This document shows, piece by piece, positions 14,936 to 29,692 of a stretch of 29,738 nucleotides of DNA (position 1 is the first letter of the stretch; each line of letters begins with the position of its first letter). The stretch lies in IMG/VR virus record IMGVR_UViG_3300013094_002559, positions 1 to 29,738 of that record, one strand, 5' to 3'. The position numbers and the translations under genes were made by a program. This DNA is from a virus. The notes under the pieces were generated by a model. That model was not told the origin of the DNA. It saw only the letters and a program-made list of their open reading frames with translations, and did not search any database.

Positions 14936-16848
<1,913 letters not shown>

Positions 16849-28661: not shown

Positions 28662-28745
28662 TGGTGCCCAGGGGGAGACTCGAACTCCCACGCCTTTCGG
28701 CAGCGGCTTCTAAGACCGCCAAGTCTACCATTCCATCACCGGGGC
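28662..28745 (-). tRNA. tRNA-Leu(TAG)
   Basis: The anticodon stem GCGGT with loop CTTAGAA gives anticodon TAG; long variable arm and T-loop GTTCGAGTC. CCA is encoded. The acceptor GCCCCGG/CCTGGGC has one C-T mismatch at the fifth pair. A palindrome, AGTATTAATACT, abuts its 5' end. Confidence 0.92.
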
Positions 28746-28765
28746 AGTATTAATACTTATAATCT

Positions 28766-29037
28766 AAAAGGTTTGAACACTAAAATCTGCTTTACAACCG
28801 TAGACCTTTTCGACCTTAGGGGGCGACCCTCATGACTCGTAATCAAATAATAAATGTCCATGCAAGAGACATATTTGATATATTACAGGAATCCAGAAGT
28901 TCTACAACTTTAAAAATATTGGGTACGCTTCGGGAACACCCGATATTCACAGAATTTTCGAGCGTGACTTGCATTACGTTATATACTTTTCCTGCTACTG
29001 GTATCAGATAGTTGTCAAACTAGTGTTCAAACTTTTT
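28766..29037 (+). ncRNA. Candidate structured non-coding RNA (strand uncertain)
   Basis: This fills most of the 338-base gap 28746-29083. The ends pair: AAAAGGTTTGAACACTA (28766-28782) with the complementary 29021-29037, one G-U. Inside are hairpins 28842-28848/28873-28879 continuing to ATGTC/GACAT, 28898-28902/28907-28911 (AAGTT/AACTT), 28915-28924/28938-28947, UCUGC/GUAGA near the 5' end, and 7-base loop-distal matches that would make pseudoknots. Three imperfect pairs are G-U on the plus strand but mismatched on the minus, which favours plus. TATAAT (28758-28763) lies just before the 5' arm, and five T end the 3' arm. Against this, ORFs of 59 codons (plus, 28832-29011, AGGGGG before the ATG) and 43 codons (minus) exist, and a strong promoter points leftward. 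Confidence 0.45.
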
Positions 29038-29042
29038 AAATC

Positions 29043-29080
29043 ACAGTACGTAGTATAAAGAAAATACTACGTACTGTCAA
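29043..29080 (-). promoter_or_regulatory. Near-consensus sigma70 promoter inside a perfect palindrome
   Basis: Minus strand: TTGACA (29080-29075), 17 bases, TATACT (29057-29052). The region is a perfect 14-bp inverted repeat (29043-29056/29064-29077, seven-base loop), so a repressor dyad and promoter coincide. It could serve tRNA-Leu and rubrerythrin, reading through the 28766-29037 region, or end the metallophosphoesterase gene as a hairpin without a clear T-run. Confidence 0.65.
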
Positions 29081-29083
29081 CCT

Positions 29084-29692
29084 TTACATTGCCGGTCCGT
29101 TACCATTTGTGCGAAAGTCTACTTCGCCACCTTCTTCTCGGATACGTCGAATAACATCTTCAAACAAGATAGGTGCAAAGTCTGGAAGTTGCTCCACACA
29201 AACGCAGTGATAGCGAACATCAGGTTCATCACTGTACAACATTTCTCCGGTCTTAGCATTAAACCCACGAACTTTCATTACACGGTTAGCATGAGTATGT
29301 CCGTGAATGTTAGTACCAAATCGACCCAACGAATCTACATGCAACGGGATATGACTTAAGATCATACCCGACATCACGTGATAGGCTCGCAATTCACGAA
29401 AGTATTGTCTATACTCTGTGTCAGGGAAGATGTCGTGGTTGCCACGGATCAAGACCTTGTCACCGTTTAAACGACTCAATGTTTTCATGGCCCGTCGATT
29501 GATCACAACATCGCCCAAATGGTACACTTTGTCAGTAGGGCGTACACGTTCATTCCAAGCCTGAACCATAGCTTCATCCATTTCCTCGGCGTTATCCCAA
29601 GGACGCAATTTTGTAACACCATCGTTACGTGTGAATCTACATACTCCGGCATGACCAAAGTGCGTATCACTAACTAAAAATACTCCGGGCAT
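29084..29692 (-). CDS. Calcineurin-like metallophosphoesterase
   Basis: 202 residues. All the metal-binding motifs are present: DTHFGH (9-14), HLGD (58-61), GNHD (84-87), SH (113-114) and HGHTH (130-134). It should bind two metals and hydrolyse a phosphoester or nucleotide; phage members have been linked to nucleotide, RNA-end or cell-wall processing, but no substrate can be assigned. The ATG has AGGAG seven bases upstream. A TATAAT lies just before the ribosome site, without a good -35 in view. Confidence 0.93.
   Translation of the reverse strand: MPGVFLVSDTHFGHAGVCRFTRNDGVTKLRPWDNAEEMDEAMVQAWNERVRPTDKVYHLGDVVINRRAMKTLSRLNGDKVLIRGNHDIFPDTEYRQYFRELRAYHVMSGMILSHIPLHVDSLGRFGTNIHGHTHANRVMKVRGFNAKTGEMLYSDEPDVRYHCVCVEQLPDFAPILFEDVIRRIREEGGEVDFRTNGNGPAM

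Follow-up and report, generated by a model that had tools for sequence, protein, structure and literature searches.

A stretch of about 270 nt in the genome of an uncultured virus is closed by a long inverted repeat and lies between a tRNA-Leu gene and a phosphoesterase gene, which raises the question of whether it is a structured RNA, a small gene or a mobile piece of DNA. The window analysed here is the whole 29,738-nt stretch of an IMG/VR virus contig (29.7 kb), and because it carries a UvsW-like helicase, GroES/GroEL-like ORFs (these from translations) and four tRNAs, it points to an uncultured T4-like aquatic phage. The GroEL- and GroES-like genes lie back to back (14936-16549 and 16552-16848), an arrangement that is unusual in phage. 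A reading made from the letters of the window alone (the sequence-only reading) had proposed a compact, undescribed and pseudoknot-rich RNA, with a mobile element or two small genes as alternatives.

The closing helix of this element is real and comprises 18 contiguous pairs including one G-U, where 17 had been counted. None of 2000 shuffles of the element ends reached an 18-bp closing helix; inverted repeats of 12 perfect pairs with their arms 200-320 nt apart, by contrast, turned up 0-3 times per mononucleotide shuffle of the window and are hence not rare at this composition. The plus-strand fold of positions 28766-29037 beats 200 of 200 dinucleotide shuffles (z -3.8), and the minus-strand fold is weaker (z -1.9). 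Given that single-sequence folding is weak proof and that chance 12-mer repeats are common, homologues were required.

Homologues of the element and covariation

Six homologues were recovered by three routes. Two of them, L162 and L163, came from loci fetched via a neighbouring 296-aa protein (hyp296); they share 72% identity and keep the gene order of tRNA-Leu, element and phosphoesterase, and rubrerythrin is an insertion seen in the window alone. Scanning for the P2 loop motif ATCTGCTTTNCAACCG gave 98 stretches, exactly two of which were new and combined a long closing inverted repeat with a full-length match to a profile built from the first three sequences only (L262, E 1.7e-25; L273, E 2.4e-16). 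A covariance model of five sequences (R1), run over the whole records behind 50 loci, then found L348 (354-kb record, 87.5 bits, E 1.8e-17) and L349 (260-kb record, 74.2 bits, E 1.2e-14) at full length, with E-values that are rough and come from a model built without them. The calibration of the covariance model is likewise rough and short chance matches occur, but both loci stand far above that level and have closing repeats of their own (18 and 12 bp, respectively). The sample thus holds seven members of about 262-297 nt, or six independent sequences. The selection of L262 and L273 by the P2 loop motif means that loop invariance is overstated for these two; L348 and L349 were not selected by it and still keep the loop with a few changes.

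Using blastn, the element gave chance-level matches only against phage and plasmid collections, and the window element, L262, L273, L348 and L349 gave nothing above chance against about 50,700 phage records. The exact pattern AGCGTGACTTGCATTACG did not occur, and among viral and genome contigs the pattern CTTCGGGAA..CC..CACAGAAT matched only by chance, except in L162 and L163. Neither blastn nor nhmmer found the element in 80 phosphoesterase loci or 80 rubrerythrin loci, but when the covariance model was run on whole records, those behind two of the rubrerythrin loci (L085 and L116) proved to contain members, well away from the rubrerythrin gene. Loci whose hyp296 relatives are more distant (L164, L207-L209) do not carry the element. 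The covariance model had no credible match in six cultured phages, and its lack of a match in 274 bacterial genomes of one class is uninformative taken alone. Several weak matches were rejected: a 23-bit match in Caulobacter phage Cr30 is short, lies inside the DNA polymerase gene and has no proper closing helix; a match at L365 is also short and without a proper closing helix; and those at L350-L353 failed with a second model, L351 overlying protein genes. The family carriers appear to be large uncultured T4-like aquatic phages.

Compensatory changes are plentiful in the proposed helices. Across the seven-sequence model alignment, which is fitted to the tested structure and so favours it somewhat, 89.5% of cells are paired compared to 79.4% when shuffled and 28-45% when slid, and the covariation score is 0.362 compared to 0.177 when shuffled (0 of 500 reach it) and at most 0.093 when slid. 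Double-sided changes occur in 16 pairs of this alignment. A strand-swap test, which is independent of the model alignment and used helices picked by eye, found own versus swapped strands paired at 100 versus 51% for P1, 100 versus 38% for P3, 97 versus 61% for P5a, and 100 versus 69% for P7. The departures from Watson-Crick pairing are also informative. On the plus strand they consist of 23 G-U and 2 A-C cells, with 8 wobble cells in P2 alone, and by this asymmetry the RNA strand is the plus strand, as the sequence-only reading had supposed. Folding energy does not decide the strand: the first five members have plus-strand z-scores between -3.5 and -5.4, L348 has -4.3 and L349 a weak -1.6, and the minus strand also folds better than chance in most members and more strongly than the plus strand in L348 and L349. 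Together, the sequence comparisons show a plus-strand RNA of about 265-275 nt with a fold under selection, and we regard it as highly probable that the element is a real conserved RNA.

Helices, loops and the pseudoknot

The coordinates of the element, its predicted helices and its neighbours are collected in Table 1.

Table 1. Features of the RNA element and its surroundings in the window
Feature	Position	Strand	Remarks
Whole structured RNA element	28765..29038	+	about 262-274 nt; six homologues; covariance model match 28755-29044, 276 bits
P1 5' arm of closing helix, TAAAAGGTTTGAACACTA	28765..28782	+	18 bp with 29021-29038
P1 3' arm of closing helix, TAGTGTTCAAACTTTTTA	29021..29038	+	T-run at end
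P2 hairpin TCTGC / GTAGA, near-invariant loop TTTNCAACC	28786..28804	+	varies via G-U, G-C, A-U
P2b small hairpin AGGG / CCCT	28818..28830	+	different letters, 5 of 6 lineages
P8 5' strand, CGTAA : TTACG 28974-28978	28838..28842	+	tentative; competing helix
P3 hairpin TCAAATA / TATTTGA plus TGTC / GACA, loop TGCAAG	28843..28878	+	unrelated letters across lineages
PK1 pseudoknot loop strand TGCAAG	28861..28866	+	pairs 28968-28973
PK1 pseudoknot 3' strand CTTGCA	28968..28973	+	pairs P3 loop
P4 small hairpin AAGTT / AACTT	28897..28910	+	weak in other lineages
P5a helix TACGCT 28924-28929 / AGCGTG 28961-28966	28924..28966	+	encloses P5b; formerly read as a second pseudoknot
P5b hairpin TCGGG-N4-CCCGA, then conserved TAYT	28930..28943	+	invariant save G-C to A-U in L349
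P6 region, conserved CCTNCNACNGGTATCAGAT	28983..29004	+	71% of cells paired; helix assignment uncertain
P7 hairpin TAGTT GTCA AACTA	29009..29022	+	abuts P1 inner end
tRNA-Leu (TAG)	28662..28745	-	divergent neighbour; kept in L162, L163, L262
Calcineurin-like phosphoesterase gene	29084..29692	-	convergent neighbour; near RNA in 5 of 6 lineages
Overlapping promoter-like motifs	28754..28763		kept in L162, L163, L262
Perfect palindrome ACAGTACGTAGTAT...ATACTACGTACTGT (14-bp)	29043..29077		between RNA and convergent phosphoesterase gene

The closing helix P1 takes the form of 12-22 bp helices with differing letters in the six independent sequences, and 9 of the 14 pairs in its main helix have changed on both sides across members. 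The stem of P2 pairs TCTGC with GTAGA, GCGGA, GCGGG, GCTGA or GTGGA, and TCTAC with GTGGA. P3 is found as TCAAATA/TATTTGA, CTATTCA/TGAATAG, TTAACAT/ATGTTAA, AAGTAAG/CTTACTT, ACTGAG/CTCAGT and ATAA/TTAT, with all 7 pairs formed in four lineages, 6 bp in L348 and 4 bp in L349. At the other end of the element, P7 has the stems TAGTT/AACTA, TGGTT/AACCA, GGTT/AACC, AGC/GCT and AGT/ACT, which with their loops read TGGTT GTCG AACCA in L162 and GGTT GCCA AACC in L349.

The description of the element as pseudoknot-rich had rested on two loop matches, ATGCAAG (28860-28866) with CTTGCAT (28968-28974) and ACGCT (28925-28929) with AGCGT (28961-28965), and all four segments lie where they had been placed. 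The first match remains a good pseudoknot. It is kept in three lineages (TGCAAG:CTTGCA, TGTAAG:CTTACA and CAAGTC:GGCTTG), is reduced to 3 bp (AAG:CTT) in L348 and L349, and is not found at the same place in L273. The second is better taken as a nested helix, P5a, because all of its versions (TACGCT/AGCGTG, GTCGCT/AGCGGC, TCGCT/AGCGA, GCCGCC/GGCTGC, ATACC/GGTAT in L348, and GCCC/GGGC in L349) enclose TCGGG:CCCGA, or TCGGA:TCCGA in L349. The competing CGTAA/TTACG pairing that had been pointed out does exist in the window (P8), and L262 has a similar pairing with 4 of 5 pairs (CGCAA : TTGCC); in L162 and L273 it is weaker. The window can also form a 10-bp helix, AATATTGGGT:ACCCGATATT, in competition with P5b. 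Only part of this helix is present in L262, L162 breaks it and L273 lacks it, so it was left out of the consensus.

Genomic setting and rival explanations

In every lineage, a minus-strand unit starts at a distance of only about 10-25 nt from the element, and the identity of that unit differs: tRNA-Leu in the window, L162 and L262, a radical-SAM ORF in L273, and a 248-aa ORF in L348 and L349. The distance to the nearest tRNA also varies, from adjoining (window, L162, L163 and L262) to 50 nt (tRNA-Ser in L348), about 1.2 kb (L273) and about 7 kb (L349). The phosphoesterase gene adjoins the element in the window and in L162/L163, and the distance between them is about 0.4 kb for L262, about 1.9 kb for L348 and about 2.5 kb for L349; for L273, the end of the contig comes first. 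On the plus strand there is no gene directly upstream and no constant gene downstream across lineages. The next gene after the element is convergent in the window, L162 and L262, a minus-strand tRNA follows in L348, and a plus-strand ORF begins 44 nt downstream in L349.

The phosphoesterase gene itself is present in hundreds of viral contigs, nearly all checked ones being without the RNA; further copies near the RNA lie at L367:11549-12217 and L368:12268-12873. In L348 and L349, the members from large phages, the gene for the 248-aa protein (L348:748-1494 and L349:746-1492) reads divergently from the RNA. The protein matches nothing in Pfam or PHROGs, and its start, M...IG.FGDSY, recalls SGNH-type esterases and the hyp296 protein of the window (MIYTLGCSF).

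The gap between the upstream unit and P1 leaves space only for a promoter without a -35 element. Within it, the conserved ACTTATAAT contains TATAAT (plus strand, 28758-28763) facing the RNA and TATAAGTA (minus strand, 28761-28754) facing tRNA-Leu. Late promoters of T4-like phages need just a -10 type box, which makes a shared divergent late promoter plausible. The inverted repeat is 20-22 bp long in L162, L262 and L273, where it passes the putative start site, and it covers the -10-like box in L162 and L262, so that transcription may begin at a more distant upstream site or its product may undergo trimming. In L162 and L163, a TATAATAT box is present in both terminal repeat ends (L163:9605 and 9895), such that promoter-like motifs point inward. 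At the 3' side, P1 runs into a T-run in the window, L162 and L273, with none in L262. The palindrome beyond it, which is kept in L162 and L163 with one mismatch each, is possibly a two-way terminator.

This setting bears on two readings in which the structure would act in cis. The constant closeness of the minus-strand unit, together with minus-strand folding above chance in most members, would fit a structure on the minus strand that serves as a 5' leader (a riboswitch, attenuator or processing element) of tRNA-Leu or whichever gene follows. We consider this improbable, as the 23 plus-strand G-U cells would turn into A-C mismatches, P2 with its 8 wobble cells would break, and the downstream unit changes kind between tRNA, radical SAM and 248-aa ORF, which is unusual for a leader. 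Somewhat more improbable still is a cis element on the plus strand, in the form of a 3' UTR, terminator or 5' leader. A closing helix followed by a T-run resembles a terminator in the window, L162 and L273, and L349 does have a closely following plus-strand ORF, but the internal conservation goes far beyond what a terminator needs, the element has no plus-strand gene directly upstream, and what comes next is a convergent gene or a minus-strand tRNA in the window, L162, L262 and L348.

The two alternatives of the sequence-only reading fare worse. Terminal inverted repeats of 12-22 bp and the AATC at both ends of the window element (28761-28764 and 29039-29042) would suit a non-autonomous mobile element or another DNA-level element with such repeats, such as a MITE, an origin or a recombination site. 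The homologues do not retain AATC on both sides, so these flanks do not have the appearance of a target-site duplication. The element has a single copy in its own contig, and the neighbourhood is constant across lineages, near the phosphoesterase gene. In addition, the internal helices covary as well as the arms, with departures that are G-U and not A-C, which indicates RNA and makes a DNA-level element very unlikely. The chance that the region encodes one or two small proteins is smaller again and close to negligible. The window does contain open frames of 55-63 codons, one of which aligns with L163, but the changes that separate the window from L163 fall evenly on the three codon positions (9, 6 and 8), single-base indels are frequent, and the frame is missing from L262, L273, L348 and L349. 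Codon positions are consequently free of bias and no open frame is conserved, and the proposal of a compact undescribed RNA holds up on the compensatory changes in six independent sequences, the wobble asymmetry, the lack of any coding signal and the lack of an Rfam match.

Relation to known RNAs and possible roles

The window element, L162, L262, L273, L348 and L349 were compared with the 4227 families of Rfam 15 at the gathering threshold, with tRNAs as the only matches. At relaxed thresholds, the window element, L262, L348 and L349 gave sub-threshold chance matches only; L162 and L273 were compared at the gathering threshold only. Within a partial collection of the literature, with few of the subscription journals, no description was found. 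The small, stable RNAs C and D of phage T4, which are of unknown function, lie in the tRNA region of T4-like phages; they are shorter and on the tRNA strand, and are set apart from the element by description only.

The closest parallels are GOLLD and ROOL, structured noncoding RNAs of phages (and, for ROOL, prophages) that are often found near tRNA islands and whose functions are unknown (PMC12286853). Many GOLLD RNAs exceed 800 nt, ROOL has a complex pseudoknotted fold with a solved example of 659 nt, and recent work showed that both assemble into cages made of RNA alone (PMC12286853). The element resembles them as a phage-borne structured RNA sited near tRNA genes. Unlike them, it is only about 270 nt long, and it matches neither the GOLLD nor the ROOL Rfam model. 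Because of this lack of a model match and a size well under half of theirs, the element is best placed in a separate family, which may work in a similar way.

Our preferred explanation is a new standalone family of trans-acting phage noncoding RNAs, in the manner of GOLLD and ROOL but smaller, and we consider this likely. Action in trans is favoured because no plus-strand partner gene is constant in cis. Transcription would begin at a compact late-type promoter overlapping the divergent promoter of the upstream tRNA or gene, and the RNA would end at or just past the closing helix, at the T-run and then the palindrome, or be trimmed there. In the conserved fold, P1 closes the RNA, the P3 loop pairs 100 nt downstream (PK1), P5a and P5b form a two-part helix, and P7 abuts P1. 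Modelled on what is thought for GOLLD and ROOL, the folded RNA made during infection would then act in trans by binding a protein or the ribosome, or by self-assembling. Any single mode of action is doubtful. The likely contact surfaces are the stretches with the strongest conservation, CTTTNCAACCG surrounding the P2 loop and CCTACCACNGGTATCAGAT ahead of P7, and loop sequences this conserved suggest that the binding partner is fixed.

We see even chances that the element represents an undescribed RNA class of large aquatic T4-like and jumbo phages, with a fold unlike that of any known RNA and a biochemical role of its own. Candidate roles for such a class include a self-assembling scaffold, a factor directed at translation or RNA polymerase, and a catalyst, in each case made during infection. 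Among large RNAs, the structured ones that phages encode beside tRNA arrays belong to the least understood. A family far smaller than GOLLD and ROOL, with conserved fold and loops, would lend itself better to synthesis, probing and structure determination, and it could help to find out if phages rich in tRNA genes have evolved RNAs of this kind time and again, and what these RNAs bind.

The element also shares with tmRNA, including the permuted form, a large structured RNA with closed ends. It differs in that ARAGORN calls no tRNA-like domain or tag frame at the element and no Rfam model matches it. A tmRNA does occur in the related L207 and L208 phages, which have a 52% identical hyp296 protein; it is permuted and lies at L207:1906-2277 and L208:1907-2278. 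These phages carry 34 tRNA genes, one of which is called as tRNA-Pyl (CTA).
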